This document shows, piece by piece, positions 14,911-61,285 of a stretch of 64,000 nt of DNA. The DNA lies in the NCBI GenBank assembly GCA_038087015.1, contig JASBNA010000071.1, positions 150,617 through 214,616 on the forward strand. The letters are read 5' to 3'. How positions within the stretch are numbered: position 1 is the stretch's first letter; each line of letters starts with the position of its first letter. The notes under the pieces were generated by a model, which had not been told where the DNA came from, searched no databases, and worked only from the letters and a program-made list of their open reading frames with translations. The stretch comes from Cerrena zonata. Its lineage: Eukaryota > Basidiomycota > Agaricomycetes > Polyporales > Cerrenaceae. The translations under genes and the position numbers were made by a program.

Positions 14911-14912
14911 AG

Positions 14913-16290: not shown

Positions 16291-16388
16291 AACAACACTA
16301 AGTCGTCCAAAGCCAGAGAGCGACAAGACGACGCACAGTCAATCTTGTCACTCTAGGCAAAAACGAGCCGCTAAGGTTTCCGCTGTCG
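16291..16388 (-). repeat. Twin-hairpin element, divergent copy
   Basis: Read on the minus strand it has the box AACCTTAGCGG, then hairpin 1 with stem GACAAGA/TCTTGTC and loop TGTGC, then hairpin 2 with GACGAC/GTTGTT and loop TTAGT. The G-C to A-T exchange in stem 1 is compensated on both sides. It lies 235 bp upstream of the small three-exon gene at 16623. Confidence 0.75.
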
Positions 16389-16622
16389 TGTACTAATATA
16401 ACGGGCTGGAGAAAGCTGAAGAACGAAGGGAGAGGGTGTGATGTTGAGTGTTACGTTAAGCATTGAAACGATGAGGTGGAAATAGAGTTCGAACCGCCAG
16501 TGATAGCCTCACCTTCTACTCGCGCTTCCGGACAGGACCGCTGTTGTGTTTCCTTTCTTCCACTAGATCGATCACATTATATACCCCATCTGTTTTCCAC
16601 TGAGGCATCGTTTGGTCGCGCA

Positions 16623-16980
16623 ATGAGCAACTTATTCTCTTCTCAGGTGTGTCTTTCTTCTCTTCCCGTTTGCCGTTTGTCTCACCGTGGGCAGGAAACG
16701 TTGGTCAACCTGACCGCCGACGAGGTCGAATGGCGTCGTACCTTGAACTCATCTTCCCGAGCCGGCAATACCGATGCAGCTGAGGTATGTGAACGTTTTC
16801 TTTGAATCCTTCGTGTGCTGACCTTCGTACTAGCTTGTCGACGCCGACGAAAATGGTCTCACCCTCCGTCAACGTATCTTGCGTCTTACTCGCGCTGTAA
16901 AACGTTCCGCCAAGCACCAGCTCCAATCCGCGAAACACGGACTCGTTAGGGTGGTTAGGCAGGTGGTGGGACAGTCATAA
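16623..16980 (+). CDS. Small basic-tail protein, divergent family member
   Basis: Three exons in phase, 16623-16646, 16695-16784 and 16834-16980, encode 86 residues. Exon 1 is MSNLFSSQ, exon 2 begins ETLVNLTADEVEWRRTLNSS, and exon 3 contains LRQRILRLTRAVKRSAKHQL followed by QSAKHGLVRVVRQVV. The same exon plan and the motifs ETLVN, QRIL..TRA, LQS.KHGLVRV recur in the genes at 27488, 42895 and 60256. Residue identity outside these motifs is low while frame and splice sites are kept, which indicates purifying selection. The C-terminus is strongly basic and could bind nucleic acid or a membrane surface; I do not recognise the family. A twin-hairpin element lies upstream here and next to two other copies. 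Confidence 0.7.
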
Positions 16981-17334
16981 GCTGGGCTTCTCTTCTTACT
17001 TTTCTTGCTTTTCTTGATGTCGTTCCATTCTTGCTTGATATCGTTCGTTCCTTTCGTGGTTGATAACACTTCTTTCTTGCTATCTTGTTACTATCCCTTT
17101 CTTGCTATTTTGTTACTATCCCTTTCTTGCTATATCCCTCCTCATCCTGTGTTCTTTGGTTAGTCTGAAATCATTGCCGACTCGCATGTAAGATACTAGT
17201 CATACTCATACCACAAACCTTTGTGGGCGTAACGCATGCTTGGGACCAGACAAGTCAGTTGCTATCTATAGTGTGTAGCCTCGACGATCACCGGCTAACA
17301 CGTTACATTCTGAACTGGAGTCCATCACCTAAAT
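16981..17334. other. 3' flank with a 25-bp minisatellite
   Basis: The T-rich 3' flank of the small gene includes about 2.6 tandem copies of a 25-bp unit (starting tttcttgctat) between roughly 17,073 and 17,138. I see no gene. Confidence 0.5.
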
Positions 17335-17379
17335 ATGCACTCGTGTGTCTCTACACAGAACCCAGGGTTACGTCCGCGC

Positions 17380-18040
17380 CAGGGACTATCTGTGGAGAAT
17401 GAAACTTTAGTAGTCTATATCAGTGGAGGATATAGCAACAAGAAGAGAGACATACCTCGTACAGCCTGTTGCGCATGGTTCGGACACGACCACCTGCTAA
17501 ATATAATAAAACGCATTGAAGTGGGTTCCAAACCAGCGGCGGATATAGCGGCTGTACTACTTGCAGTGCAGAGGGCCCCAAACTTCGCCCCCCTACACAT
17601 CGTGACCACATCAGCGTACATTATGGAAATCTTCACCAAACACTAATGAAATGGGAGGCGAAAGGCTGGACCGACATCAAGAACGAAACCCTGATAAGGG
17701 CAACACTGGCAAGGTTAAGACGACGGTCAGCGGTCACCACTTTCAAGTGGACCAAGAAGGATGAGGCTAGCCTCGAAAACGAAGAGGCTGCGACGCGAGC
17801 CAGAAATGCATCAACAGGCCAGGAGCGAGAGGAACTGGACACTTCAATCGCAGAGTCTTTCAACCTAACAGGCCTGGAATTAGCCACAGCGAGCCAAGCC
17901 CTCATATACCGACACATCCGCAAAGAAAAGAACCCTGAACCACGTATGGCTGTGGAAAAAAACATGGAATGAATTCGAGACGAAATAAAGAAACGGACGG
18001 GGAGGACGCCGAATCACACACATATATGGAAATCACTCAT
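17380..18040 (+). pseudogene. LINE retrotransposon remnant, RNase H part
   Basis: The frames read as the RNase H domain of a non-LTR retrotransposon polyprotein: ADIAAVLLAVQRAPNFAPLH, then KWEAKGWTDIKN and LIRATLARLRRRSAVTTFKW. The element is dead. The first catalytic aspartate position reads VVYISGG instead of a YTDGS-like motif, and the later VTDSAY-like motif reads VTTSAY. The frame shifts at FTKH/MKWEAKGW, and CGA appears to have become TGA at about 17,970, just before the segment IRDEIKKRTGRTPNHTHIWK. No reverse transcriptase domain is visible upstream. The element is interrupted at about 18,035 and resumes at about 19,640. Confidence 0.8.
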
Positions 18041-19640
18041 CACAGCAGTCGTTCTATGGCTTTCGTTGATAACCTCGAGCCCACTGTAAGCTCGTTCTAA
18101 AAGTTCTGGCATGACTAGGTTTGGCTCTAGCATAGCTAATAGTTGGAGAGCGCCTTGCGCATAGCTGGAAGAAAGAGGATCTTTGGCAAACATTGCGAGC
18201 AATGTAGGTGTACGAAGGGTGGTAATGAAAGCATGCCGGATCGCAGGTGTGAGTCGTCGACCCTAGAGATGGTTCGTCATGTGAAGGAAGGGTCGGGAAA
18301 AATTATGTTTCGGGCTTACCACAGGTGTTTTGCAGGTTCGGACTTTCTCTTCGTTCCACCTCTTGCAAAACTCCACAGCAAGCCGATGCACGAAACCCGT
18401 CAGCTATTTTATGGGTTAATACATACCCTAGAACCACCGCGTAACGACTCACAGCCAAAGTCCAATGTCCAGAATTCGATGGGTGGAAATACGATTCGGT
18501 ACTTGTGATCAACCTATCGAGAGAGTCCATGGCACGAGAGCCCGCGAGGAAACCTGGGCTGGCAATATCAGTCCTTAAAGGCCCATCGAGTGACATCGAA
18601 AAAACTATGATCTTCGCCAGTGCGTCTGCAAGTAGGTTTTAAGACGAAACTTTTCAAATGTAGGACGGAATACATACCGAACTGGCTGATGAACTTTCTG
18701 ATTCTCAATGACTGACGATTTCCCATGGTATCGGCATGGGTAGCGGTCGTACTCGCACCCTAATGTCTGTGTTCGCAGATTGATCAAGTTATTCAGAAAA
18801 AAGAATCTCACCTTGACGACTCCCACTGGTACATCTGGTACATTGTCAGCTCTCATCATTCTCCAAGTGAATGTTGAAATTCCTCACTCATAGGATTAAG
18901 TGTGTGGCCAATCAGGATGGACCACTCGGCCTCTGACCAGATACCAACATCCTTATAGTCGGCAGCTGCTTCACCAGCGTCGCCAGATTTACCTGCGACA
19001 AATTCTTCTGATAACACCCCGCACAGGTCGAACAATCGGTCATCAGTTATGGAGGAGTTAAAGGTTTCCCATAATCTAAAGAAAGTCGGCATGTAAAGAT
19101 GCGGATTAGCAGCGGGCAAGGAGGATGTCATCACAGGTATCATAGTCAAAATTGTCTGAGATATATATATTAGTTTACCTCAAGAATAGCCTTGCACTAC
19201 ACGTACATCCTTTGTGACCATTGGAACGAACGCTGACAACATATTGGGGATTTCTTCAGTAGGGTAATATCTGCTACTATGTTCAGCTACGTAGAGAAGG
19301 ATGTTGATCATATTCCGTCTACAAGATCTCAGATGTAATTTCATTGACTCAATATTTCAATGGTAAACGTACGAAGATTATTGGAACCGTTTCTTTGGCC
19401 AAAGTTCCTTTTGCAAGACTCGCCATAACGGCTCCCAGGGTAGTTGGTGGATTCCAATCGCCTCCTTTGATCGGCTTTGCTACAGAGAAGACGAGAGATC
19501 ATGTCAGCCCAGCTTCTCACAACACGAGGCTCAAGCCCAGGAACAAGACAAAGCTCATAGTAGAGTCGAACAAGTTTGGCACGAATGGCAGTCGTCATTG
19601 TGTAGCGTAATAATAGCCAGCTACATTCGGATGAATGGTT
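18010..19640 (-). pseudogene. Proteasome activator BLM10/PA200 gene fragment
   Basis: Minus-strand frames match the HEAT-repeat proteasome activator Blm10/PA200: MPELLERAYSGLEVINESHR after KDPLSSSYAQGALQLLAML, further upstream NPHLYMPTFFRLWETFNSSI, and at the 5' end RAKLVRLYYELCLVPGLEPR with VVRSWADMISRLL. Blm10 proteins are about 1,800-2,000 residues; only an internal part of some 400 residues is present, so it cannot work as an activator. Intron-like gaps with donor and acceptor sites remain (for example between the exon ending near 19,200 and the one starting near 19,149). The fragment was therefore captured as genomic DNA, not as a retrocopy. It sits antisense inside the LINE remnant. Exact borders with the LINE are uncertain by some tens of bases. 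Confidence 0.8.
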
Positions 19641-20590
19641 TAGAATACCATTCAGGACTTTGAGCGATACTTGTTGTGGCTTACCAGGGACAAGGCTTTC
19701 AGCCGGCCCAGATCAGACTTCCTCTGGAAAATACTGCATGGTGCCCACAAAGTTCGAAAATTTTGGACGAAACTTGCCGGGTATGAAGATAGAGGGATCT
19801 GCCTGAGATGTAAGATAGCTGAAGACATGGAACACATACTATTCAAGTGTAACGCTCCCGGACAGCGACTAGTATGGCGGCTTGCACAAATCCTGTGGAG
19901 CAGGACGAAGAGGAACTGGCGTGGCAGAAACTTGGGCCTCCTACTTGGAAGTGCGCTCGTACCCTTCCCACAACCACCAGAGACAACCCTAGAAGCCAAC
20001 AAACTCCATGAGACGGGCAGACAGCCAAAGGGGAAGAAAAAGAAACGACGGACCAACGATAGATCGACAACGAATGGCGCTCAGAGACTGTACATGATCC
20101 TACTCTCAGAGTCCGCGTACTTCATATGGAAGCTACGCAACGAGCGTCGCATCAAGCATGCATCCAACCCGGATTTTGAGCATGCCGCGACCGAGATCGA
20201 GAACCGATGGTTTAGCATGATTAACACCCGCTTGACGCTAGACAGAGCGATGGCGAACAAAAAGAAACTGGTAAACAGGCAATAGACCCCAACCTAGTTC
20301 TCAAAACACGGAATGGCGTACTCCATAGCGAAGACAGACTTCCAGACGACTGGATTCGTACTCCTGGGGTTTTAGTGGGTAGGGGGTATCCAGAGGCGGG
20401 CGTGAACAAGCACCGTTGATGAAGGGTACCAGAGTCCCACACTGTTCACTGAAAGGTGAGCGTGCGTAACTGCATTTTTCCCCTTCGGTAGATCGCCCGG
20501 TTACGCCGGGATATAGCTTGACCTCTCAGAACTAACCAAGTTAGTTTCTGAACGGTCGTTAATAGCTCTTCCAAACAAAAAAAGAAGGGC
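19640..20590 (+). pseudogene. LINE retrotransposon remnant, zinc-binding C-terminus and 3' end
   Basis: This continues the LINE polyprotein. DFLWKILHGAHKVRKFWTKL and ICLRCKIAEDMEHILFKCNA form the CCHC-like zinc-binding segment found after RNase H in fungal LINEs. The frame breaks once near 20,280 and resumes as LPDDWIRTPGVLVGRGYPEA, ending about 20,417. A 3' UTR-like stretch and an A-rich end (ccaaacaaaaaaagaag) follow near 20,570-20,590. The open frame is otherwise long, so decay here is lighter than in the RNase H part. Confidence 0.75.
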
Positions 20591-20689
20591 ACTCGTGGTA
20601 CGTGATATAATGGCAATCAATCCCCGGTCCCTCGAACTACAACCGCTGCAAAATCATAGAACTCGGAATTCTTACCAAACTCTTGTGAC

Positions 20690-21310
20690 AGACGATGGAA
20701 CAACTATTTGCCCAATTCCTCTAGAAAGGTCTTGCTAGTTGGCGATTTTGGAGTACGGAAGATAGCTCATTGATACTACGCTGGAATTGGTGTACAACGG
20801 TAGCAGCAGTCCCTGTAGAGGATATGTCAATAGCTTCCCCAAGTATCACAGTGCAATGACTCTCCTGAGGTATAAGCATGTCGAGAGACAAAGGGCTTAC
20901 TGCCCCGCACTTCATCTGTATGAGGAATGACGAGGAAGTATTCCGAGCTAGAGCAACGAACTTACCTCGAACTCATACCTATTAGAGTAAGGAGGGCGTC
21001 GATGTCGATTACATCCGTATATGGACGCTGGAGTAGAAGATAGTCAGCAGGAAGCCTGACACGGTACCAGACGTAGACATACCAGATTTGGTTCATGGAA
21101 CCTGAGCCAGATTGGGCGACAATGAGGGCCCATAGGGCATATTGGAACAGATCATTGGCAAGATTGAGTGTATAGCACCTCTAGCGGCTAATGATCACGG
21201 AGAGTTCGAATACCGAAGAACATCTTGTGAAAAGACCATATTTTGGCATGGCACGTCCTTGAGCGGTACTGTACCAAGCTGGTATGATTCGAGTACGCGA
21301 AAGCCAGGCC
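20690..21310 (-). pseudogene. Degraded MYND zinc-finger gene
   Basis: The pieces parallel the intact MYND gene at 28616-29386. SLVQYRSRTCHAKIWSFHKM corresponds to SLVQYCSRTCQRTMWSSHKI, with a zinc-binding Cys changed to Arg. A frameshifted FQYALWALIVAQSGSGSMNQ corresponds to LSQYAIWALNIAFIGASMTN. The last exon starts MKCGAVSPLSLD as in the intact gene (MKCGVVRPS) and ends near 20,690. A stop follows the zinc-finger segment directly. The first exon was not found. I consider it non-functional. Confidence 0.65.
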
Positions 21311-21399
21311 ATGAATGATGAGCGTACTAGCATCGTGAGCATTTCCGTAGATGTCGGTAGACGACGTATACATAAGCATCCACGCCAACATACGGTAGC

Positions 21400-21610: not shown

Positions 21611-21808
21611 TGACTTCACCTGTGATCTAAATAAGAATACGGATTAATTTTGAAATTGGCGTTGGTCACCACGAGCTGCCACGAGTCAGCCTCGAGTCTG
21701 AGCCACTCCCGCCACTGATAGCTACATATATAGACACGGTGAGTGGGCCACCCGGTACATTGTAGAAACAGTTTCTTACCAGCACTCCCTTCCATAAACT
21801 TTCCCGTC

Positions 21809-22577
21809 ATGCTACCAAACGGACATCGATTCCAACTCAGCTTCGACATCTCCCATGGGGATGCTCCTACGGTGGTTCAGCTCCCAATCATCGAATATGT
21901 GGCACAAGTGAAGGACGAGAAACTGCAAAAGGAGGTGGCATTCAGGTGGGTCACGCGAGCTTGGCCATATAGTCAGACGATATACTGATTGAGATTAGGG
22001 ATGAAAACTCACAAATAAAGACAGAAGTAGACTCCGATAATTCTTACGTCGATGACGCTGTAGTCGACGGTACACACCGCCACTCAGCTGTGTCCCCCAG
22101 ACGTGCAGTGGCTCGGTCCTCTACACCTCGAGACAAGGGATCAGTCGGCCGTAACAACGAGGTGAGAGAAATGTCTTGAACAAAAGCAATACCGTCATTG
22201 ACATTATTTGATAGTTCAAGAATGTTTCGTCTAGACAAGCGATCAAGATGAGAAATCTGAAGCATTGGATCCATTGGTTTCAGACCGAAAGTGACGAACC
22301 AGCCCATATGCCGCCGCCTGGGCCTTGGCCCGCAGACAAAGGACTTCGATACCATGACTTGTATATGCAACGCGCGGAGAATGGCGCACTAAAGGTGTGG
22401 AGGTATCTCCCGAACAACACTGGCGAAGACGGTAAATGGGTGCGATTGAGGGTGGGCGCAGAGGTCGACGTACCTGGATTGGCAGGACCTAGAGTTTTTG
22501 TCATCAATAAGCAGGGCAAGCCATCTTTCGTTCTGCAGGGAACAGTAAATAAGCTATACAACGAGCTGGAGAAGTAG
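21809..22577 (+). CDS. Unrecognised 220-aa protein (copy 1)
   Basis: Three exons fit in phase: 21809-21945, 21999-22161 and 22215-22577. The N-terminal part reads MLPNGHRFQLSFDISHGDAP. A polar middle (SAVSPRRAVARSSTPRDKGS) is probably disordered. The C-terminal part contains LKHWIHWFQTESDEPAHMPP and VFVINKQGKPSFVLQGTVNK and looks globular. An acceptor-like cttaccag just before the ATG allows an additional 5' exon. An identical gene lies at 61411-62179 on the minus strand. I do not recognise the family. Confidence 0.65.
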
Positions 22578-22702
22578 TAGTAGATGTGGTAAAGTCTTAC
22601 CAAGCGGATAGCTAGTGTAAATCACTCGGACGCCGTACGACTAGACGGGTGTTAATAGATAGTGATCATGCGACCGGCGGGCAGACTTGGAAGGGACACC
22701 AG

Positions 22703-22802
22703 CAGCAGAACGACACAAAGTCGGTTGAAGCCAGGAAACGAGATGGCGCAAAGCCAGCCTCGTGCGATGGAGCGTCGGCAGACCGCTAAGGTTACTGTCG
22801 AC
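22703..22802 (-). repeat. Twin-hairpin element
   Basis: On the minus strand it shows box AACCTTAGCGG, hairpin 1 ACGAG...CTCGT with inner pairs TGGC/GCCA and loop TTTGC, and hairpin 2 CGAC/GTCG with loop TTTGT. The outer end of the 5,628-bp inverted arm (22,774) falls inside this copy, between box and hairpin 1. Confidence 0.8.
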
Positions 22803-23044
22803 TGATACCGGCGAGGACGTCCAGTAGATGGCACGAGAGAGATTGGAGATGTGGGAATAGACGGCCTTCATGAACAAACTAGAGTGCATACGGTGTCAGC
22901 AACCAAGCAAGAGCAAAATGGACATCTACAACATCCGAAACGAACATGATGTCACGGAGGATTGAAGGGTGAGTCGACAGTTAGCCATGCTTGAGGGTTG
23001 TACTCCTTGTTGCAGTGAGAACGACGACCGATGGGCAGGATGAT

Positions 23045-23148
23045 GGCAATTGGACGACGCAAAGTCGCCCACGCCAGAGGACGAGACGACGCAAAGTCGG
23101 TCTCGTTCATTGCGGTATCGACAGTCCGCAAAGGTTACTGCCGACACC
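23045..23148 (-). repeat. Twin-hairpin element, standard copy
   Basis: Minus strand: box AACCTTTGCGG, hairpin 1 ACGAGA/TCTCGT with inner CGAC/GTCG and loop TTTGC, hairpin 2 GGGCGAC/GTCGTCC with loop TTTGC. It is nearly identical to the copy at 27157-27260, exactly 4,112 bp away in the same orientation. Confidence 0.9.
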
Positions 23149-23423
23149 GTCAATACAGCCAGCAGCAGAGAGAAAAGAGAACGAGAGACCGGGAGAGAGA
23201 GACCAAGAGTTCAAGTTCAAGGAAAGCTAGACACGAGTCGTCGATTCGGACACGCCTGAGCCACGCCTGAGCACGCCACTAAGCGCCGCTTGTCCTTGTT
23301 GTTTTCTAAAGTAGTTACCTTTTATAGAAGCACCAGCTCACGACGGGATATAAATAATAATGTTATATACACAGACTCTCGGCAAATATTCTAGTACAAC
23401 AAGTAATAAAAGAGTAATACTAC

Positions 23424-25287
23424 TTATTTCTTGGCCAAGCGGCGGGTATATTTCAACCACGGCGACCTTCCCAAGTCTCGAAGCGTCATCCTTTGGCCAG
23501 GATCAACAATCAGCAGCCCAGCGATTACTTGTTTGGCTTCGCATTACAACGCAATGTCAGGCGCGCATTCAAACTTAGAAATTAGATACATACCTTGTGG
23601 GCTTACTTCCTTGGGTAGCAAGTTGTACCGGGGGCGCCACCGATCCTTTTGTGGTACCTCGTCATGACGATCTTCAAACGGTCTCGTTCCAGCAAGCCTG
23701 CAATAGTGATCGTCAGTGTCTGACAAGTGAAATGCAATACGCGTACACACATGTTGAAAATAACGCATCCGAGACCCCAGCTATCGACAGGGAAACCGTA
23801 CGGTGCCTTTCCATACCGGATCTCCGGAGCCATGAAAGGGGGTGTTCCAACCATCGTCTGCGCTCGACATCAGTCGCAACCTTTGCCAGGTCAGTCAGAA
23901 GTAGACGCACCATATCTGTCGATACCGGCTTTGCCAATCCAAAGTCACCGATTTTGGTAATAAACGGGTTCAAGGAGAAAATAAGGATATTCTAATGCAA
24001 CTCGACGTCAGTGTTCAGACTCTTGCATCGAGCTCCACCGATACATACACATGGCTTGATATCACGGTGGGCTATGCCCTTACTGTGTAAGAACTTGAGT
24101 GCATCAGTCGCATCCTTAGCCATAGCCTTTGTGAGGGGTTCCGCTAGCATAAGTTCATCAATTATTCTGAACCGACTTCTGCAGACAGAAGACAAACTTA
24201 CAGACGGTCTTGTTGTCCTGAATAAAGGTTTGCAAATTTCCGTACTCTGCCTTCTCCATGATCATATCTGGCAACAGCGTGTCAATGTCAATAGAACGAG
24301 CGAAGCTAAAAACAAAATACGTACATATAGCGGTTGGTTCTTTCAGAATTTCGTAGACGGCGACGAGGTAATCCTTCAAGCGGAAGTAACTATTAGAGTC
24401 ACAAACAGAGCACGTTTACCAACAAGACTCACGTGTCTGTAGGAGGTGGAAATCTCGCATTCACGCTCCACGTACACATCTTCTCCGATAAGAGAAGCGT
24501 TGTTGATAGTGATCTTCTTCGCTGCATACTGCTTGCCCACCGCGCGCTTCCTACAAGCATATACCTCTCCGAAGCCCCCCCTACCGAGCCTACCGACGAC
24601 ATTCATAAGCATCAATAAAAAGAACATGTTTGATGAAATACTCACTCCTTCCCACAATCATATAGCGAATCGAACTAGTCCAAAGTCAGACGAAGGAGGA
24701 GGACAGTAATGATGTCATTGACGTACCGAACCCACTGCAAATTGAGTGAACTTGCCCTCTACAGATAGGAAAGATAAGGAACACAATCCCATCCAGCAAT
24801 AGCAGACTCACCTATGATCCCTTGTGAACCACCATTTCCAATGGTGATCATGGCGCCATGTACTAGCTGGCGCGAGGTATGGGCAGCGATGGCATGACTA
24901 TCAACCTACTTATGTCTTAGGTTGCCGGAAGCACACTGAACCGATTGAATGCACTACTCACAAATGTGCCGTTGGAACTTCCGTGGTCAAAGACTGAGAC
25001 ATCAAAGCCAGACGCTGACAACGTCGACTGGATACCTAAGTGAATACCGCCTTTGAACGCATAAGTTGTCCGTTGCTGCATGCTAAGATACATAAAGTGA
25101 TTGACTCACTGACAAAATCACACTCGAAGATGACATTGCAACGATTAGGATCGCGTCCAAGGGTATAGAGTGTCTGCAAGGCCAATGGGACTTCAAATTT
25201 CACGAGAGAGTCATCCGTACTCGTTAGCTTGCCCACCAGTGGCATAGTAAGACGAGGGAGCGGTCGGATAGTAACAGAAGTAGGCAT
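23424..25287 (-). CDS. FHA-domain Ser/Thr protein kinase (left-arm copy)
   Basis: This is the mirror copy of the gene at 45452-47315, with 13 in-phase exons and 397 residues. An N-terminal FHA domain (YTLGRDPNRCNVIF, GIHLGIQST, FDHGSSNGTF) would bind phospho-threonine partners. The C-terminal protein-kinase domain keeps every catalytic motif: GRGGFGEV, AAKK, HRDIKPCN, GDFGLAK, MAPEI. The layout recalls Rad53/Chk2-type checkpoint kinases, but it is shorter and has a single FHA, and I do not claim orthology. Twin-hairpin elements lie beyond its 3' end (23045, 22703). Confidence 0.9.
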
Positions 25288-25762
25288 GGTTAGGCTGGAA
25301 GACGGGGGTTCAATGCTAGCAGAGAGGGAAATGGAGGTAATGGAATGAGAAGATGGAAGGGAGATTCGGGGAGCGAGGGGGATTTATGGTAAACAGAGCA
25401 CAAAGAGCAGTGGCTCAGGCTATGCCCGTCGTCAGTGGCCAAAGGCCATCCTAGTCAATCACCGACATGAAAGGTAGGCCGGCCAAAAGCCAAAGCATCA
25501 GTGGCGAACAAGCTCACCGTTAACATGCGTACAGTATGTCAAAGCGAGAGGCATGGCCGCGATCCTAGTCTAGCAGCCCACTCAACGATACGGAAATCCT
25601 TTGACCCATCTCCAGCTTTGTCGACACTGAGAAACGCGGCCATAGCGAATGAGAAAGAGGGCGGGCCGACTCAGAAGAAGGGGGCCAGTTCACGAGCAAC
25701 AAGAGACCGACTGGCTTGTATTGTCACATGCATTTTCGCAACCTGTGCCTAAATCGAGATGA

Positions 25763-25933
25763 GATTCAACATCGGATGCGCGGGGACCCTAGAGATGTCA
25801 CATCAGCACGCGGTGCACACAAGGCGTCGATATCACCTCTCGGAATGTTCGAGGAGTTCGCTCCGGATGCTATAGTCGGTTCATCAGCTTCCCGTCCATT
25901 GTTCTGTTCTCTAGCACTCACACGCACTCACAA
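25763..25933 (-). repeat. Dispersed 171-bp repeat, left-arm copy
   Basis: This is the mirror of 44806-44976 and homologous to 55599-55770 downstream of the transposase. It lies between the kinase and MYND genes. Confidence 0.8.
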
Positions 25934-26043
25934 TGCATTCGTGAATGGGCCACGTAATGATCGGATATCCACATTCAATTCTCTTCACAACTACAAATCT
26001 AACTAAATTGGTCGACGCCGATGAGGGCTACCGAAACCCACGG

Positions 26044-26862
26044 TCAGTAACGAATGACAGGCTGCAGAGCACCCTCGTGCCCTAGACGGTAGTGAAGCCT
26101 ATCCACCCAGTGCATCTGCAACGTCTTGGAGAGTTTTCGGTCCTGGAGAGAGGGCGGAATCCTAGCCGGCAGAACGAACCGGAACTGATGAGTTACGTGT
26201 GCCAGAATTCGACCATTGTTGTCTAGGTTGTTGAAATCCACGACAACGAGTATTGATGGGCGTCCCTCATACTGAGGTAGAAATTGACCGCGACATTCAG
26301 GACTAAGAGCACGCACTCGCGTCTTGTACACATCCACCTAGAGACCATCTATTAGAGGGTTACAGAGAATCGACATACAACCTACATCGAAACCACAGCG
26401 GGTGTGGTACGTGGGCGTAAGGCAAGTACACTTCGATACCAGTTGAATATAGATACTATACGGGTATACGGATTAGTCAAACTTGGGCCATTATAGAGAC
26501 AGACAGACCCACTATGTTCGGGAGGTGATCCCAACGCCGAGTCGAGCAAGATCGAGTGACCAGATGGCGTAGCGGGACAGAACCGGCCTGGTTTTTTTTA
26601 GCCAGGTTAAAGACCGCCCCCACAGAGCGAGTGACTCCAAAGGCTGTAGTTCCAGCTCCAACGGCCAGCGCTTGCAAAACACCCGGTGTGTGGCCCACAT
26701 CTGAATTTGACACTCTTCTGAACAATAGCTAACCGCACTGGGACTTGTTAATGAGGGTAAATATTGGTCTGTGGCGACTTACCAGCATCGTGAGCACTCG
26801 TAGAGTTTTTTTCCTCCCTTGCAGACAGAGGTGCATGCGAAGCATACGCGGCGGGAGGGCAT
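26044..26862 (-). CDS. MYND zinc-finger protein (left-arm copy)
   Basis: This is the mirror copy of the gene at 43877-44695. Exons lie at 26783-26862, 26513-26737, 26386-26455 and 26044-26337, giving 222 residues. It has an N-terminal MYND finger (CFACTSVCKGGKKLYECSRC, then SYCSEECQIQMWATHRVFCK), a module for protein-protein contacts. The rest is the uncharacterised tail typical of mushroom MYND families. It is intact, and head-to-head with the small gene at 27488 across a twin-hairpin element. Confidence 0.88.
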
Positions 26863-27156
26863 TGTGGACGAGAGGGCTATGATATGGGAGAAATAATCGA
26901 GGAAAGAAATAGGGATGTACGCAGTTTACATATTATACCCCCGGTAGCTCTGTTCCCAATCCCAGATAGGAGCAAGAATCCTCTTGGAACGCATGCGTAA
27001 GCCATGAGTCGAGTATGTCTTCTTTCCAGAGACGCAAGCTAGAGGCACACCCCCGCTTCCAATCGATCAATTAAGGTGCCAGTAGGAGGTCAGTGGAGAC
27101 CAACATGGTCAAAGATCCCTAGATAGTAAGAGTCCACGACTGATGGGCAGGATGAT

Positions 27157-27260
27157 GGCAATTGGACGACGCAAAGTCGCCCACGCCAGAGGACGAGACG
27201 ACGCAAAGTCGGTCTCGTTCACTGCGGTATCGACAGTCCGCAAAGGTTACTGCCGACACC
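27157..27260 (-). repeat. Twin-hairpin element, standard copy
   Basis: Same structure as the copy at 23045-23148: box plus two TTTGC-loop hairpins on the minus strand. It lies between the MYND gene (start 26862, minus) and the small gene (start 27488, plus), in their shared upstream region. Confidence 0.9.
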
Positions 27261-36012: not shown

Positions 36013-36036
36013 TAAGTTGGCAGTCTGCTAGCATCA

Positions 36037-49515: not shown

Positions 49516-49540
49516 GCTTTTGCTGTTCTGGTTCAAGTTC

Positions 49541-50469: not shown

Positions 50470-50567
50470 GTCGACAGTGACCTTAGCGGACTGTCTATGC
50501 TACATCAGACGAGATTGACTTTGCGTCGTCTCGTCCTCTGGCGCAAAGCGACTTTGTGTCGTTTCGC
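50470..50567 (+). repeat. Twin-hairpin element, divergent copy
   Basis: Plus strand: box GACCTTAGCGG, hairpin 1 ACGAGA/TCTCGT with a T-G wobble and loop TTTGC, hairpin 2 GCAAAGCGAC/GTCGTTTCGC (nine of ten pairs) with loop TTTGT. It lies 350 bp upstream of the transposase ATG. Confidence 0.85.
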
Positions 50568-50916
50568 TGTCTCTCATGTCACGCCTTCCGTGAACCCGGC
50601 CATCCAGTCGTACCGTCACATTCAAAACACCGCTTGTTGATGCAGCATCCATCCCGACCTTGTTGTTATCACGTCATCCAATTCCATCAGGTCGATCTTT
50701 CTTAATTGGTACAATGCAGCTCGATACATGGTACTTGTGTATACTGATACCGACTGGTATAGACAGCTGTTCTCTTCGATACATCGACCTATCCAAAGTT
50801 TTTGTTGCCTCATACCATTTGTGCCGATATCATCACGTTTGGTCATCGCTTGACTCCCACGTTATTATTCTGTCTCATATATAATCTCTCTTTGCCACAC
50901 TGCTTCCAGTATCGCC

Positions 50917-53900
50917 ATGCCACCTTTTTTGAGGGGGGGACACATTGTAGGAAAACGACTTCCTCGCCAGCACCACATCGTTTACTGGTGCCGTTGTCCA
51001 GAATGCTCTGTGCACTCAGCTTTTGACCCTCTCACTCAAAAGTTTGTGGCGGGACGTCAGTTCGGCAGGGACGACTACCGTCGTCATCGCCGCAATTATC
51101 GTATTGCTCATGCCGATCACTTCCTTCATTCTCCCCCTCCCCCCCCTTCCTCGTCCTCTAGTAGTGATCAGTCCGATCATGAAGAGTGTGCTAATTCTGA
51201 AGGGACGAACCCAGGCCTTTCAACAAGTGATCCTACAATTGATCGGCTTGAAGCCGAGTTTCACCTTCGGCGCAACAAGTTAGATAAAACACCAAACCTT
51301 ATCTTTCAATCCCCCCCCCAACCGACTGGCGATGCCCAAATTCCCCCCTCTTCGCTAAACAACGAAACATCGCACTCCGACTTCAACACCGGTCTATATG
51401 CACTCGATTATAGCAGACAAGCCAATCGACCGTTACTGGAACACTTCCAATGGCTCCAGGATGTAACGTCGCAATTGGACGCTCTTTCGCTATCCGAGGA
51501 AATGCGCGAGGATCGAAGAGCGTTATTGAATATGATAGATGAGGAGCTCTCAAGAGTTAATGCTCTTAGGGTCACAGAGTGGAACCGGCAGTTCGATGAA
51601 CAAGCGCGTGCTCGTGCACTTTGGGTGCAAGGAAAGGTATTAGTTGTTGACACAGGTCTGTAATCCCGCATCCTTGATTTCCTCACTGACTAATGATCCA
51701 TTGCAGTCAAGTATTGCCTCCCTTCCATTTACACCGAACATACTATGGTGTATGCTATTTACCTTATGTTGGCAGTCCTGCATACCATCGGTGGCTTAAG
51801 CATGGACCATTGTATTTTTGCCGTTGCAGGCATTCGAATTGTGGTCGAACTCGCTGCTGTCCTCGGTGGTGCCTCTGATGGAGAAGCTGAAGGTATCGTT
51901 GCTGACATTCCTGGCAATGTCACTTCCATTCTTGATCGCCTTGATATCGCTCCCGATACTCGCGGTTATGTATGTTGCGCCAAGTGTTTCGCGTGTTACG
52001 ATGTCGAGGACTATCCGGACTATTGTACGAACATTGATCTACATACCGGACGTCCATGTAAAGCTTTACTACGCCGAACCGTTCGCAGGAAAGGAGGCCA
52101 AACAATCGCTCCCATCAGGAAGTACCTACATCATGACATGATGAAGTGGACGGCCCGACTTCTTTGTCGACCGGATCTCGAAACATGGCTTGATCGGCGT
52201 GTTATCGACCCAGAAAGCAAGTGCGAGGAGTTGAGGGACATCTGGGATGGATCCGTTTTGAAGCAGTTCAACGGACCCGATGGCAACCATTTCATTCTTG
52301 GCAAACCTAAATCATCTGAGGGACGATACATTTTCAGTCTCTGTATGGATGGTTTGAATCCGTTCCACAACAAACAGGCAGGGAAGAAAGTTACTGTTGG
52401 CGCTATGTACATGGTCTGTTTGAACTTACCCCCACATCTTCGATATCGAATCGAGAATGTCTTTCTGGTAGGTATTATTCCGGGCCCAACATCACCATCT
52501 CTACATCAAATCAACGAAGTCCTTAAGCCTCTGATAAAGGATTTACTGTTGTTCTGGAGTCCTGGCGTGTATTTTTCGCGAACGTTTCGTTATCCTAAAG
52601 GACGCTTAGTTCGCTGCGCGGTAGTGCCCGTTGTTTGTGACCTTCCTGCTGCTCGCCAGCTCGCAGGTTTAGGAGGCCATAGCGCCGGGCTCTTTTGCTC
52701 GTTCTGCAAACTCCACGCTCACGATATGGACGACCTCGACATGAACCACTGGGGATCTCGGACGTTGGCGGAGCACCTTACATTGGCGGAACGGTGGAGG
52801 GACGGCACTCCCGCGGAACGCAAAAACATATTCCAGACACATTATGTACGATGGTCCGAACTGCTCTCACTGCCGTATTGGGATCCCACGCGTTTCCTCG
52901 TACTGGATAGCATGCATGCGCTCCTCCTCGGATGTATAAGACACCATCTTCGCGAAATATGGAAAATGGACGTGAAACTTGACGAAACAACCGTACTCCC
53001 TGCGTTGAAAGGAAGTAGAACTCTTCATCCTACGGAAGAGCAGATAAAGATCGCCTGGCGGACGATGCGGTATGGCTCCGACTCGGCACTCTCGGGGTTA
53101 TCTCTATACATCCTCAAGGATCTCGGTAGACAGACCGACAGTCCTGCTGGAAAGCGTAACCTCATACTCGCCCATCTGATGGAATACGTGAGTAAGCTCA
53201 TTTTGTAATATTTTCTTTGCACTAACCAGGGAACAGCGTACAACGCAAGGGTGGCCACAGACTGACCCAAACCCGGAGGGAAAGCAACGAGTAAAGCGTC
53301 TCCCTCACATAGCTGAACCAGAGGAGATAGCTGGTGCTATAAGGGCGTTTTGGCAAAGACTGAGGCTAGGATCATATCGGAAAGTCGTTTTAGCCCATAT
53401 TCTAGTACACCTCTCGTCATCCTCGCCACAAGCTATCACCAAGGAATTTGCCATGGCCAACACGAAAGCAAGCTTGGTCGATATGCTCTCTCGATTGGTA
53501 TGATGTCATTATAGCTCTGGAAACACAATACTGATATGCTTCTTAGCGGACATCGATGACGAGTGATATGGAAGTCGCCTGGAATCGTGCAACGAAGAGA
53601 ACTAACCTACAAGAAGAGTTAGCCGAGGATTCGGAGCTGCTAAGTACCATCAGTACACAGATGTCGTCTGAACTTCAGTCTATCGCTGAGGGACCACAAC
53701 TTTCTGTCGAGGGGCTAGGAACGCTGGATAGCACGGACAGGAGGTTCCTGGGTAAGGACGTTCTCACCCGGGTTTGGGAGGATAACCATCACATGGTTCT
53801 TCCATCCTGGATCGGTCGTGTGCCTCCTCGTGTCGGAAGTTCTCAGCACGGCAAGTTAAGTGCAGACCAGTTGCGGTCAACCTGCACAATCAACCTGGTC

Positions 53901-54948
53901 ACTACTCTGATCAGTGTTTGGGGTATCGCCCCGGAGGGGTCCAAGTGGAAGATCGTCCTTGACAATTTCATGGACCTTGTGGTTGCGGTGAAACTTGCTC
54001 ACATGCGTACCTTGACGCCGAAACGAATTCAGAAATATCATTTCTACATGTACAGGTATCTGTGCACGATGCAAGAACTCTATCCTCACATTTCGATCCA
54101 GCCAGTACAGCACATGTCACTACATCTCACTCGACTTATGGAACAATTCGGACCTGTACATGCTTGGCGGTGTTTCGCATTTGAGCGATACAATGGCATT
54201 CTTCAGAACATTCCGACAAATTATCAATTTGGTAGGTTGTCCGAGGTTGCCATCGTGTGACACATCTAACTCATGAATATTAGGCGAACTTGAGGGCACC
54301 ATCTTCAACAAATTCTGCATGGGCCAGAATCTCCGAGTCGCTATGGCATCAGATAATGTTCATAACACTCTTGGACGAATGTACAAAGCATTCGCTTCAG
54401 TATTTGACAGTGAAACTAGAGGCACTTTTTTCAACGATACTCGAGCATTTGAAACTAGGGACCACTTCGAATACAAAAACAAGACAACACATACGGCTCT
54501 TCCCGCCCACTTACATACCCTTTTCCGACGTTATTGGGGGCAGTCGACCCCTGCATTAGTACTTCTCCAATCCTCTATCCAGCGCTTCGGCATGTCATTC
54601 TCCAAGCACAGTACCTCCCCGGGAGACAGCATGGTCATTGTTGGGACACTAGAGCAGTGGCAGGCATGCAGAATTACGGACATAATTGTCATCCCATCAG
54701 GTAAAGGCATTGTGGGTGAGCCGTATCTTATAGTGGAGCCATATACTGCTTTATCATCCAAGGATGTCAAACATGATCGTTATCGGCAGTATCCACTTGC
54801 AGGCCGCTTGTTCTATGATCAAATCGGTGACCCAGTAATCGTGAAGGCGAACAAGATTTTGTGTCATTTTGCAGTGACACCTATTAGGGTGAACGAGATA
54901 GATTCTCAATGTCTTCATGTTCACCCTCTATATCGGGTGAGTATCTAA
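50917..54948 (+). CDS. Tnp2-type (EnSpm/CACTA-like) DNA transposase, intact
   Basis: Five exons in phase: 50917-51655, 51707-53187, 53237-53497, 53547-54231 and 54284-54948, giving 1,276 residues with no internal stop. The N-terminal region has the pattern HHIVYWCRCPECSVHSAFDP, a Ser/Pro linker and a helical stretch. A hydrophobic segment precedes the Cys motif RGYVCCAKCFACYDVEDYPD. The Tnp2 core follows: FSLCMDGLNPFHNKQAGKKV, GAMYMVCLNLPPHLRYRIEN, then GGHSAGLFCSFCKLHAHDMD and FLVLDSMHALLLGCIRHHLR. The C-terminal half contains LSLYILKDLGRQTD and KIVLDNFMDLVVAVKLAHMR. It would cut and paste its element in the nucleus. A donor-like gtgagt just before the stop allows an extra C-terminal exon. 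Terminal inverted repeats were not found by eye. Confidence 0.9.
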
Positions 54949-56189: not shown

Positions 56190-56560
56190 GAGCTCATGCA
56201 TCTATAAAAGGTAACTACTTTAGAAATCAACAGGAACAAGCAGCGCTTAGATAGGAGGCGTGGCTCAGGCGTGTCTCGAACTTGTTGAACGACTCTCCGA
56301 TCCGACTGATCATTGATGTCTGTAGGCCTTCCCTCGAACTCTCGGACTCTTCCCCTCTTGTCTCTCGGACTCTATCTCTGGTTGCATTGGCGGTGTTGGC
56401 AGTAACCTTTGCGGACTGTCGATACAGTAGTGAACGGGAACTGACTTTGCGTCGTCTCGTCCTCTGGCGTGGGCGACTTTGCGTCGTACGATTGCCATCA
56501 TCCTGCTCATCGGTCATCGTTCTCATCGCAACAAGAAGTACAACCCATCAAGCACGGCTG
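56190..56560 (+). repeat. Copy of the 47.4-47.76 kb block including a twin-hairpin element
   Basis: Both blocks run from a TATA-like tataaaaggtaactactt through gcgcttag and ggcgtggctcaggcgtgtc to the twin-hairpin element and the phrase catcctg..catcggtc. They are diverged with several indels, in contrast to the indel-free arms. The duplication is therefore older. Confidence 0.75.
56393..56494 (+). repeat. Twin-hairpin element
   Basis: Plus strand: box AACCTTTGCGG, hairpin 1 ACGGGA/TCTCGT (one wobble) with loop TTTGC, hairpin 2 GGGCGAC/GTCGTAC with loop TTTGC. Same orientation as the copy at 50470, so the two bracket the transposase as direct repeats 5.9 kb apart. Confidence 0.85.
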
Positions 56561-56785: not shown

Positions 56786-58267
56786 ATGAGCTCTGCCTGT
56801 GGCCCTCACCCCAAGAATCGTCTGCCTCTCATGCTGAACAGGATCAAAGAAGTTGGTGAGTGCAATCTTACTTTTTAAGTACATTGTCTCATTATACCCT
56901 CAGCTGCAGCCTCTCGTCGTCGCTTGCTACGTTCGACCCCTAGCGATGGCCGCCGTGCGTTCACGACTACTCTTGGTCATGTCAACCCTATCGTCGCTGT
57001 GGAAACACGCGATGCACCCATCCACACATTCTTGGGACACATAATAGACAATCCTTCCATTTACAATATCATCTTCTGCCTATGCCCCGCTATAACCCTT
57101 GTTCGATTGCTTCGAACCTGCTCCCGAGTTCGCGCTGCGGTCATGGACTACATGTCGTACAATTTCAGCGTCGATCGCCTGCTTTCCAGGTACTTCTCGC
57201 ATCCAATCACTTTTCGTTACATACAAGCTCGCTCTGCCACTATTATTTCTGGATCTACCGCCCTTCAATTCTTTGACCGAACCTTCTACCCTGAATCCGA
57301 CCTCGATTTATACGTTCCAATGGCTTGGAGAGAGCGTTTGGGTTGTTATCTGCTTAACGAGGGGTATACGTTTTCTCCGAGCCCTAAACAACACCCTACA
57401 TTTCATATCGCAGTTTCGGATCGGGAGGTCCTTTCCTCGCGAGGTCGATACGGACATTTGAAGGCAATAGCAGGTGTCTTCAACTTCACTAAACTCACCG
57501 CACTCGGTCAGTTGAGAATACAAATGATGGTCGCGGTGCGCTCCACTTTGGAAGTGATTTTGAATTATCATTCAAGTAAGTCAATCCTCTTATGGGTCCA
57601 TGGAATCTAGCTCAGATCGATTTTCTAGCCTGTGTAATGAATCTCATTACTTTCGACAAGGCTTACTGCTTATATCCTCGTGCTACGCTTGAGGATCGAA
57701 CGTCCTTGATCTGTACTAGTCGGGACGATGAGGTTATCGAACGAGTGTACGATAGGTATCGTGAACGAGGCTGGACTATGGTTACTTCGTACGAACAAGT
57801 CGAACCGCTGACTTTGCCCAGTCTCCAAGTCGGTCTTCCTCGCTCGATTGAGGGCGGCTACACCTGGGTTATCACTCTTCCGTGTGATTTCTATAACCTC
57901 ATTCTACCGGTCACTCCACGATCGACCCCATTGACCAGCGACCCCGTTTCCGCCTCGAGTTGGACTCTGGTCGAAAACAATGAAGCTGGTCCCCATATGA
58001 AGTTTGGCAACATTACCCACCCACAACTTTTCTATGCCTATGTTCTATCCACCACCCGAGTGATGAGGCTACCGGCGATGCGTTTGTTGATGGAGATGGC
58101 CTCTCGGGCCAATTTTCATCCTCCACGTCAATTCAGTGTGGAGAACCACCAATAGTAAGGTTGATCTTTCATGACATATTACGTTGGTCTGACGTCACTT
58201 TTCCTGTAGTGTCGATGAGAGATTCATCCAATTGTATCGAGAATTTCTAAACATTATCCTTCCGTGA
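56786..58267 (+). CDS. Nucleotidyltransferase-fold protein, mushroom family
   Basis: Four exons in phase, 56786-56855, 56904-57575, 57629-58154 and 58210-58267, encode 441 residues. A TATA-like tatataaat lies directly before the ATG. An N-terminal F-box-like helical region (SIYNIIFCLCPAITLVRLLR) is followed by a nucleotidyltransferase-like signature: SGSTALQFFDR then ESDLDLYVP, that is G-S-x-A followed by D-x-D on a beta strand. The remainder is a large C-terminal domain (FGNITHPQLFYAYVLSTTRV). Proteins with this plan form expanded, uncharacterised families in mushrooms; catalytic activity is unproven. A twin-hairpin element lies about 290 bp upstream. Confidence 0.8.
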
Positions 58268-58760: not shown

Positions 58761-59825
58761 ATGCTGACCTTTATCAAGTCTTTGTTGCGCGGCCAACCTA
58801 ACTTACAACGCTATCAAACGTCACGTTTCAGAGACCCCATATCTTCCCCAGGCCATGGTATGTCTCCGTCTATTTTGCCATGCTCACACGTCGCTGAAGT
58901 ATATCGACCACAGCGAGGCGACCAGATGCCGACATACGTCAGCCCATGAACGTCGCTGTACCGGTAAGCCTCGTCCCAGACAGTTGCTCGTGGTCTTGAG
59001 TTTACTTTGATTTAGCGTCCCATACCTCCGCGAGTCCTTGAGCACCCCTTGATGCTCTGCTGTGCCATAGTTCTAATTGGTGCCGTGTTGGCGTTATGGG
59101 ACGACCTCCATATCCATATACATTTCGCTACGCGATCTGCGCTGAAATACGTGACTACCGGCTCTTCTTTGACGAACCCAAATCTGGCACTTGTTGCAGG
59201 TGGTGCGGCTACATTGCCCATGTTTACCATGGAAGCACCGTTGTATGGCATCAGTATGCGATGGCTACCACGTCATTCGGAGTACAATGACCATACAATG
59301 ACATTGGATAGGAAGATACCTTGTGGCCACCCGGCAAGCGTATTACACCCTTCCGCAGTCGCTGACCGATGCTGGTGCTTCATGGGGTCTACAGGTCAGG
59401 TCGGTATCATGTTGTCCCACCCCGCGTTTATCACGAATATATCCCTCGACCATATCCCACTTCGTTCCTCTCTAGCTAATGCCCCTCGTGATGTTGTGAT
59501 TTGGGGAGTGGTGGATGGAGAAGCCAACCAGGAGCGATATGATGATTCCATAGACATTCTTCAAGACTTGCGGTCTCGCTTAGACATCAGAAGTCCCTTC
59601 ACACGCAATGAAGATCGTGACTTGGTGTACGTGCCTCTCGCGTCAATCTTCTACAATATTCGTAAATCAGATCTCTTCCAACAATTCGAAGTGTTTCCGG
59701 AGGTACGCCAGCTGAACATGGACTTCGGGATAATCGTAGCTCAGGTAACGAGCAACTGGGGCGAGTCATTTACTGCTCTACATCATGTGGGTATCTACGG
59801 GGAGAAAACGGAGGGTTTGTTATAG
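58761..59825 (+). CDS. SUN-domain protein
   Basis: Exons 58761-58857, 58926-58963 and 59016-59825 join in phase for 314 residues. After a polar N-terminus and one or two hydrophobic spans (MLCCAIVLIGAVLALW; LALVAGGAATLPMFTM) a SUN domain follows: CWCFMGSTGQVGIMLSHPAF, ITNISLDHIPLRSSLANAPR, DVVIWGVVDG, VPLASIFYN, then LNMDFGIIVAQVTSNWGESF and LHHVGIYGE at the end. SUN proteins sit in the inner nuclear membrane and link it to KASH proteins of the outer membrane. The coiled coil usual in Sad1-type SUN proteins is not evident, so this looks like a short mushroom paralogue. Confidence 0.88.
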
Positions 59826-60245: not shown

Positions 60246-60255
60246 GTAACAAAAC

Positions 60256-60612
60256 CTAGGCCCTTCCGACCACCTTTTTAGCTACCCTAACAAGGCCATG
60301 TTTTATCGACTGGAGTCGGCACCGGGCGGACTGCGTTAGAGCGCGAGTACGGTACAGAATTCGCTGGGAAATGGGTTCGCGGTCTGACGAGTCGGTAAGC
60401 AAACGATTTCGATTAACACGCAAGAGGAGGGAAAAGCGACGCACTCAGGCTGGGGACCGTGACTGGAACATTATTGGCGTCGTCAACAGGGGATGGGCTC
60501 AAGATATCGAGTCCTTCCGTTGTTGGGTTGACGAGAGTTTCCTACGGAAAATGAGTAAGCAGGCGAATAGAAAGCGAGGAAAACATACCTCGGAAGCAAA
60601 CGCGGAACGCAT
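60256..60612 (-). CDS. Small basic-tail protein (third copy)
   Basis: Same 82-residue, three-exon gene as at 27488 and 42895, with the same splice sites and identical translation in the parts compared. Here the flanking MYND gene is missing because of the 4,112-bp deletion or absence. Confidence 0.7.
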
Positions 60613-60839
60613 TTCTTCAACGATGACTGCCTTAATGGGTATTATCATTGTGCAGAGTAGAGGGTGATCGATCAGGTGCGGTAACGGTCCGGATAGGCGC
60701 GTGGCAAGTATTGGCGTCAAGCACGCTGCCTTCGACTTAACTCATGTCGACCGCAGTCTCACCTCCGAGTCAACCCTCCGACTTCGACTTCGACTTCAAC
60801 TTCGAATCCTCCTCCATGTCCCTCTAGCTTTGGCCGTAT

Positions 60840-60943
60840 GGTGTCGGCAGTAACCTTTGCGGACTGTCGATACCGCAGTGAACGAGACCGACTTTGCGTC
60901 GTCTCGTCCTCTGGCGTGGGCGACTTTGCGTCGTCCAATTGCC
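60840..60943 (+). repeat. Twin-hairpin element, recombinant copy
   Basis: Its left side has the variants of the 43479 copy (atggtgtcgg, cagtgaacg) and its right flank the variants of the 47591 copy (catcggtcgtcgttc). The crossover lies between 60,879 and 60,958, the interval that contains both hairpins. Confidence 0.92.
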
Positions 60944-61185
60944 ATCATCCTGCCCATCGGTCGTCGTTCTCACTGCAACAAGGAGTACAACCCTCAAGCA
61001 TGGCTAACTGTCGACTCACCCTTCAATCCTCCGTGACATCATGTTCGTTTCGGATGTTGTAGATGTCCATTTTGCTCTTGCTTGGTTGCTGACACCGTAT
61101 GCACTCTAGTTTGTTCATGAAGGCCGTCTATTCCCACATCTCCAATCTCTCTCGTGCCATCTACTGGACGTCCTCGCCGGTATCA

Positions 61186-61285
61186 GTCGACAGTAACCTT
61201 AGCGGTCTGCCGACGCTCCATCGCACGAGGCTGGCTTTGCGCCATCTCGTTTCCTGGCTTCAACCGACTTTGTGTCGTTCTGCTG
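61186..61285 (+). repeat. Twin-hairpin element
   Basis: Same copy type as 22703-22802: box AACCTTAGCGG, hairpin 1 with inner TGGC/GCCA and loop TTTGC, hairpin 2 CGAC/GTCG with loop TTTGT. Confidence 0.82.

Follow-up and report, generated by a model that had tools for sequence, protein, structure and literature searches.

A conserved three-hairpin element repeated within a giant CACTA-type transposon of Cerrena zonata

We analyzed a 64,000-nucleotide stretch of the genome of the basidiomycete Cerrena zonata (GCA_038087015.1, contig JASBNA010000071.1, here C71, positions 150617-214616; hereafter the window), whose right edge is the end of the contig. The window contains repeated copies of an element of about 105 nucleotides (nt), which we named H. 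H is very probably a tandem array of three hairpins with like loops, located inside a giant CACTA-type transposon. Between the roughly ten genes that this transposon appears to hold, the spaces are tagged by H, a conserved folded element with no confirmed copy elsewhere in the genome.

A first-pass annotation had described H as a box followed by two tandem hairpins. The box, AACCTTNGCGG, is itself the tip of a hairpin, giving three hairpins per element. Hairpin 1 consists of a variable stem, an internal loop with N-A-A opposite N, and then CC-TNWGY-GG. Among its 21 distinct copies, the three pairs just below the internal loop read GC (14), AT (5), and GT (2); GC (15), AT (5), and one mismatch; and CG (15), TA (5), and TG (1). 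Hairpin 2 carries a bulged base, four pairs below its loop, and hairpin 3 is a plain stem. All three present the loop C-TNWGY-G, closed by a C-G pair. The loop had been given as T-N-N-G-Y; the constraint was confirmed, but the third position is restricted, as 64 of 68 loops follow T-N-[A/T]-G-Y (21 from hairpin 1 in distinct copies, 24 from hairpin 2 and 23 from hairpin 3 in copies less than 93% alike). The T, G, and Y were partly fixed by our search patterns, and the A/T at position 3 was free of them. The spacing between hairpins 1 and 2 ranges over 7-20 nt with no conserved remainder modulo 3, which indicates that H is non-coding and rules out a coding origin. An Rfam scan of the window matched a tRNA gene alone (9069-9154), with no family at the gathering threshold for H, and a scan of the H region at 50380-50650 returned nothing up to an E-value of 5. 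These results agree with the earlier annotation, to which no described fungal repeat of such a form was known.

The box, allowing one mismatch, matched 18 times in the window, compared with 2.6 matches expected from shuffles (largest shuffle, 6). At all 12 coordinates listed in the first-pass annotation, two hairpins are present after the box. A covariance model of hairpins 2 and 3 (R1), built from 15 sequences, retrieved 13 copies from the window with E-values of 8.5e-20 to 1.8e-9, the next-best matches having E-values of 0.72 or worse. The thirteenth full copy, absent from the earlier annotation, has its box, AACCTATGCGG, from 37352 and hairpins 2 and 3 at 37379-37448. R1 also detects two lone copies of hairpin 2, which had been overlooked earlier, as had a partial copy with hairpin 1 alone. 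The copies are as follows.

14512-14533, minus strand: isolated hairpin 2 close to the left end, following a WD40 gene fragment (R1)
16288-16392, minus strand: full copy (box/hairpin search and R1)
22703-22807, minus strand: full copy (box/hairpin search and R1)
23047-23150, minus strand: full copy (box/hairpin search and R1)
27159-27262, minus strand: full copy (box/hairpin search and R1)
30537-30640, minus strand: full copy (box/hairpin search and R1)
37027-37137, minus strand: full copy (box/hairpin search and R1)
37338-37448, plus strand: full copy, ending 71 nt short of the ATG inferred for gene F
43479-43580, plus strand: full copy, recent inverted duplicate of 27159
47591-47692, plus strand: full copy, recent inverted duplicate of 23047
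47934-47975, plus strand: partial copy with hairpin 1 alone, the breakpoint of an inverted duplication falling between hairpins 1 and 2
50465-50569, plus strand: full copy, 347 nt before the ATG of the transposase gene
56390-56494, plus strand: full copy, upstream of the F-box-like gene
60840-60941, plus strand: full copy joining the duplicated blocks 27136-27854 and 21676-23148, which meet inside it
61183-61285, plus strand: full copy
63934-63955, plus strand: isolated hairpin 2 close to the right end, following the WD40 gene (R1)

All of the copies annotated earlier are real, but they cannot be taken as mutually independent evidence, as several are recent duplicates. Recent inverted duplications account for the 98-100% identity among the copies at 23045/47591, 27157/43479, and 60840, and those at 22703 and 61186 derive, together with the partial copy at 47946, from one sequence. 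Eight copies in the window are distinct at less than 93% identity.

The evidence that changes in the stems of H keep base pairs is strong. When ancestral states were placed on a tree of 25 sequences, 100 stem changes were inferred, of which 65 leave a standard pair in place, compared with 34 expected from the substitution spectrum at unpaired sites; none of 300 replicates reached 65. Double changes that keep pairs numbered 14.5 versus 7.9 expected. Lone hairpins, the row L095:5322, and rows more than 97% alike were left out of the tree tests, and the two outermost pairs of hairpin 1 were left out of the event count. Across 41 R1 matches (30 distinct), in an alignment fitted to the structure and thus biased in favour of pairing, 90.9% of the 514 cells in hairpins 2 and 3 are standard pairs (shuffle mean 87.1%, 0/500), and 11 of the 18 pairs have changed on both sides (5.7 in shuffles). 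Structures slid along this alignment by an offset are 25-62% paired. The stem of hairpin 1 is paired in 112 of 126 cells in the 21 distinct copies, versus a mean of 97.9 and a maximum of 104 in 2000 shuffles.

We favour the box strand, as RNA, over its complement, because G·T exceeds A·C in the stems; single-stranded DNA is an alternative. With a fixed U·G pair excluded, the stem wobbles on the box strand comprise 57 G·T and 16 A·C cells. Hairpin 1 contributes 17 G·T and 3 A·C; the corresponding counts for hairpins 2 and 3 are 59 and 13, or 40 and 13 without the fixed pair. Counted as inferred events on the tree, the wobbles are 26 G·T and 12 A·C (p 0.034). The pair at columns 14/26 of alignment A3 (n=30) is U·G in 20 sequences, U-A in 4, C-G in 3, and another combination in 3; on the complement strand, the same columns would read as an A·C mismatch in 20/30.

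The boundaries of the carrier transposon were identified by comparison with other contigs. A fragment of contig C68 (L022, 685-1912) aligns at 98% with window positions 13704-14914, and in each of them the similarity ends at CACTGGGTATAACCCAGT. Because it ends sharply there with different flanks, the window element begins at 13704; it runs off the contig end. If this copy resembles that on C68, its right end would lie 771 bp past the contig end, for a length of about 51 kb. The termini have the form CAC...GTG, with CACTGGGTATAACCC at window position 13704 and at C68:177184, and CACTGGATCGTAGCC at C46:58274.

13704-14386: left terminal arm, beginning CACTGGGTATAACCCAGTAC, 89-95% like the arms of three 1.26-kb fold-back elements
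13704-14914: long terminal repeat (LTR), composed of the terminal arm and the 3' end of a WD40 gene; its inverted partner is 63544-64000, an inverted copy of 14467-14914, and the remainder, including the outermost right end, would lie beyond the contig end, as inferred from C68

Termini like that of the window match 18 places in the genome (up to 3 mismatches), among which are 7 pairs that face each other at a distance of about 1.26 kb (C11:923816-925075, C68:199801-201060, and pairs on C90, C21, C26, C51, and C62). The three pairs that were read (C11, C90, C68) each consist of two inverted terminal arms joined at a GACT-repeat centre, with 3-bp target duplications in 3/3 (AGT, CCC, AGT). The duplications were thus seen on fold-back derivatives with the same ends, each giant copy being observed at one end. 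These fold-back elements are probably deletion derivatives of the giant transposon, and one of them lies inside its C68 copy. The 30-base end of the C46 type, CACTGGATCGTAGCC / CACTGGATCGTAGCCC, has 130 genome matches (up to 3 mismatches); many CACTGGATCGTAGCCC matches form facing pairs about 0.7 kb apart, constituting an abundant fold-back family.

The transposase gene matches Transposase_21 (tnp2) in Pfam with an E-value of 5.3e-15 and 55.6 bits (cut-off 28.6), and 386 homologues with E-values up to 0.001 were obtained among the 7995 candidates scored. Judged from its sequence, the carrier of H is a CACTA/EnSpm-type element and, by its ends, not a Plavaka; its CACT ends and predicted tnp2 gene likewise point away from the Starship giant transposons, which carry a tyrosine-recombinase captain gene at one end, although no search aimed at such a gene was made. 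A tblastx comparison of the window with the first 61 kb of C46 (1-61 kb) revealed a second copy sharing the transposase gene and nine others, namely F, E, D, the MYND gene (B), the F-box-like, SUN-domain, and WD40-like genes, and the short genes A and C, in a different order and with most blocks at 41-78% protein identity. The genes of the window copy are listed below.

16654-16980, plus strand: gene A block, opposite to the direction of H; related blocks at 27728-27847, 42892-43011, and 60253-60372
21809-22577, plus strand: gene C, running against the neighbouring H copies; inverted duplicate at 61414-62179
23277-25293, minus strand: gene D, several blocks; inverted duplicate at 45446-47462
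28616-30306, minus strand: gene B' (MYND finger); related copy B at 20575-21350
31169-32969, minus strand: gene E; one relative, in the agaricomycete Steccherinum ochraceum
37520-39712, plus strand: gene F, with an inferred ATG exon, a 56-nt predicted intron, and long exons; two copies in the genome (protein search)
50917-54948, plus strand: transposase gene with the Transposase_21 (tnp2) domain; several open stretches read as exons
57032-58113, plus strand: F-box-like gene, named from reading the sequence, with no Pfam match
59016-59825, plus strand: SUN-domain gene
62112-63826, plus strand: WD40-like gene (23.4 bits, cut-off 27), its end read from the sequence

Copies of H point outward from the interior of the transposon. 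In the window, the 7 full or partial copies left of 37.14 kb are on the minus strand, and the 9 right of 37.33 kb are on the plus strand; in C46, 12 copies up to 46.8 kb are on the minus strand and 7 from 48.9 kb are on the plus strand. A single strand switch per transposon copy therefore fits 16/16 and 19/19 copies, respectively. All 7 copies found on C68 are on the minus strand, toward the terminus at 177184. On C77, where the terminus is at 71836, the two copies close to it are directed toward it, and a third lies on the minus strand at 56.9 kb, its end not seen. Neither the carrier transposon nor this polarity had been noticed in the earlier annotation. Most genes of the transposon also read outward, with genes A and C reading inward in both the window and C46 copies.

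Several genes have H upstream in more than one copy of the transposon. The ATG of gene F follows H by 71 nt in the window and 83 nt in C46, and the gene has a predicted intron with a CTGAC branch-like site, directly after the ATG in the window and three codons later in C46. The ATG of the transposase gene follows H by 347 and 325 nt in the two copies. H is also kept before gene B' / B in the window and C46. The F-box-like gene has H upstream of it both in the window, 538 nt from its first conserved block, and in C77. Copies also occur after the tails of gene D (window, C46), the WD40 gene (window 63934; C46 33320), and gene E.

To place H in the genome, we searched all 55.5 Mb (171 contigs) with four patterns, and the fractions of matches falling on C46, C68, C71, and C77 were 31/31 (control 5), 33/35, 24/25, and 35/39 (controls 0). 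These four contigs make up 1.8% of the genome and carry copies of the giant transposon, and confirmed H copies are found on them only. The search used patterns in place of a covariance model, so that diverged copies elsewhere may have escaped. Because the matches concentrate on these contigs, H is seemingly not spreading on its own. We rejected H as an independent mobile element: the five pattern matches on other contigs (C1:1712422, C2:603622, C2:2361665, C6:1645296, C24:48864) score 5.3-12.2 bits with R1, compared with at least 24.8 for accepted copies, and the two that were also folded are not H. Two C46 matches below the threshold were excluded from the counts (12.2 bits at 43196, minus strand; 10.4 bits at 39793, plus strand). 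A subtelomeric repeat was likewise rejected, as all 61 matches to four TTAGGG units lie off C46, C68, C71, and C77. Pattern matches in viral contigs (5) and in bacterial/archaeal genomes (18) were single and were taken as chance without being read. On C16 (568496-573961) and C34 (84274-101615), F-box-like and gene E relatives lie near each other, possibly representing an older relative of the giant element; R1 scored at best 5.0, 4.4, and 3.9 bits around the F-box-like gene in the stretches searched there (L102, L103, L109), with no H found.

The structure and placement of H suggest a role for which we offer a tentative reading, with a chance somewhat short of even: H may be a cis-acting folded RNA tag on the transcripts of the transposon, read by one predicted loop-binding protein. 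H would be transcribed in the leader of most outward-reading genes, the best case being gene F, with H 71-83 nt before the start codon. One putative RNA-binding protein, encoded by the host or the element, would recognize the three like loops, and the messages of the element could thereby be handled as a set in translation, stability, export, or escape from silencing. In a wider form, which we regard as doubtful, a DNA transposon of about 50 kb would run its genes as one RNA regulon, with a leader of three UNWGY loops read by a transposon or host protein, as some RNA viruses do with leader hairpins. Of the roles proposed in the first-pass annotation, a structured transcript fits best, and recognition by a transposase or recombinase is less well supported.

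A number of observations weigh against the RNA tag. An R-scape-like all-pairs test on 25 rows detected 0 of 4371 column pairs at an E-value up to 0.05, for which reason we grade the covariation evidence as moderate. The best two proposed pairs had E-values of 4.3 and 8.1, or about 0.03 and 0.05 when scaled to the number of pairs proposed (28); this test has little power, as it had 25 rows to work on and the inner stems are for the most part invariant. The compensating stem changes claimed earlier are thus upheld as pair keeping (65/100 versus 34) and not as significantly covarying pairs, an outcome that, taken formally, is the one the annotation had named as its own refutation. Folding energies do not separate the strands, both of which give more stable folds than shuffled sequences (z of -1.7 to -5.1 in 8 box-strand folds and -2.2 to -6.0 in 4 complement folds), and the minimum-energy structure lacks one or more hairpins in 3/8 box-strand folds (16288, 30537, L047:1491). 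The polarity does not amount to 35 independent facts, because some of it was passed on by inverted duplications. The direction of genes A and C is opposite to that of the adjoining H, neither transposon copy has H immediately upstream of its SUN or WD40 gene, and the lone hairpins at 14512 and 63934 follow the WD40 gene tail, which is not a leader position. The C46 match before the F-box-like gene scores 12.2 bits, no better than a stray genome pattern match. Both copies of the transposase gene have a TATATA-like stretch between H and the ATG, and H there is therefore possibly upstream of the transcription start. As for the carrier, the left end of its C46 copy was not found on C46 among the matches listed.

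The best-surviving alternative, which we still consider unlikely, takes H to be a small RNA in its own right, or else a signal for the 3' end of the gene upstream: an intergenic hairpin RNA between outward genes, cut from long transcripts. The presence of H in most gene joints and after the tails of D, WD40, and E is consistent with this, as is the direction of H, which follows the arm and not the gene where A and C run inward. Conversely, H stays at the starts of gene F, the transposase gene, and gene B at similar distances even though the upstream neighbour changes, which speaks against this alternative.

We consider it quite unlikely that H is a site of recombination at the DNA level, through which homologous recombination, or an attC-like enzyme acting on folded single strands, would shuffle genes. 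Three of the six ends of the three window duplications (identity at least 99.8%) fall in H, which makes up 2.9% of the element (binomial 4e-4), a count that is post hoc and omits a fourth block pair derived from the three. At 60840-60964, two duplicated blocks, each ending in or just beside H, meet inside it; another window duplication breaks between hairpins 1 and 2, at 22765/47975; and C71 and C46 order their genes differently, the joints being occupied by H. Ordinary homologous recombination acting on repeats that are 98% identical would suffice for such joints with no dedicated function, leaving the preserved stems and loops unexplained, and neither end of the 3.5-kb duplication of C46 falls in H. 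No integrase was recognized among the open reading frames (ORFs) scanned, which were part of all ORFs, and no integrase-family search was made.

It is improbable that H is a cluster of palindromic sites in double-stranded DNA, bound by a transcription factor or by an accessory protein of the transposase. Plant CACTA elements have subterminal binding sites to which such a cluster may be likened; H lies upstream of genes, dimer-bound near-palindromes covary too, and the complement folds as well. The bulges, the unpaired five-base loop of fixed pattern, and the excess of G·T over A·C are features of one strand, and H is spread across 50 kb and not limited to the ends. Finally, a passive repeat spread by gene conversion, with hairpins lacking function, would fit the recent duplications that carry H with genes and the non-significant all-pairs test, and is very improbable given that pairing survives stem changes at about twice the expected rate, that most pairs of distant window copies align over little beyond H, and that the pattern matches are confined almost entirely to four contigs.

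Beyond H itself, the window element is partly palindromic, containing a 5.6-kb inverted duplication (22765-28401 versus 42338-47975, 99.95% identity) and two further block pairs at 99.9%; C46 has its own 3.5-kb inverted duplication (30076-33569 / 48756-52249, 99.8%). The 5.6-kb duplication starts, at 42338, inside a second, shorter transposase-like gene (41038-42555; Transposase_21 below cut-off). Gene F was found only in the window and C46 copies: the database protein P0002 is about the same protein as the C46 copy and not an independent homologue, none was found in viral contigs, and a structure prediction from four sequences was uninformative (mean predicted local distance difference test score, pLDDT, 39.7). 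For gene E, which has one relative in the protein search, this genome also contains weak relatives on C85, C16, C34, and C26. The giant element also contains remains of a non-LTR-like retroelement at 17314-20282 (weak RNase H and zf-RVT matches, both below cut-off) and a tandem repeat at 49542-49672 (30-bp unit, 4.4 copies, 98% matches). Just outside its left end are two related genes (10987-11653 and 12757-13415, 82% DNA identity), and further out in the flank lies a gene with NTF2 and RRM domains in Pfam (278-1575), which we take to be G3BP-like. The flank past the C46 terminus (C46:58275-61000, L104) has, by eye, the look of a Gypsy-type retroelement.

Cut-and-paste transposons usually have one or two genes. 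An RNA-tag role for H would show how many genes can be coordinated by one large mobile element of a eukaryote, and the UNWGY loop and three hairpins would provide a short handle on the protein that reads it. Should H turn out to be a recombination site, the reshuffling of gene content in such elements would be explained.

In the accessible parts of the literature on giant, CACTA, EnSpm, and Plavaka fungal transposons and on transposon RNA structures, including PMC13066641 and PMC8216456 (the latter, in the part available, a screen covering Ascomycota), we found no description of H or its carrier. The element shares with CACTA/EnSpm the CACT...AGTG ends, probably their inverted arrangement (the outermost right end of the window copy being placed by comparison with C68), the Transposase_21 gene, and, on 3/3 fold-back derivatives read, 3-bp duplications. 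Enlarged CACTA families of a red alga are given as 16-20 kb with 4-5 ORFs in the available text of PMC6431247, compared with about 51 kb and about ten genes here, and that text does not mention internal three-hairpin elements. Plavaka elements of Agaricomycetes have a related transposase; we rejected this identity, since the Pfam match was weak (20 bits, cut-off 26.3), the gene being of the tnp2/EnSpm type instead, and the window termini CACTG..CAGTG are unlike the Plavaka ends TGT..ACA or CATCA..TGATG given in the accessible portion of PMC12730594. Double-hairpin elements of fungal mitochondrial DNA (Allomyces; Paquin et al. 2000, as cited in the part of PMC6609731 available) are, like H, short repeated tandem-hairpin units in fungi; as described there, they are mitochondrial and GC-rich with two hairpins by name, whereas H has three, is oriented, and belongs to one transposon. 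The contigs bearing H (190-373 kb) have predicted introns and genes of nuclear type, unlike mitochondrial DNA. Integron attC sites resemble H as imperfect, bulged, strand-specific hairpins at the joints between shuffled genes, and H differs in its three hairpins, its eukaryotic setting, and the integrase result given above. The coronavirus SL2 hairpin is a 5'-leader pentaloop hairpin with a CUUGU loop; it shares a Y-N-N-G-Y pentaloop with H, a comparison of loop shape alone that implies no homology, with one loop in SL2 and three in H.

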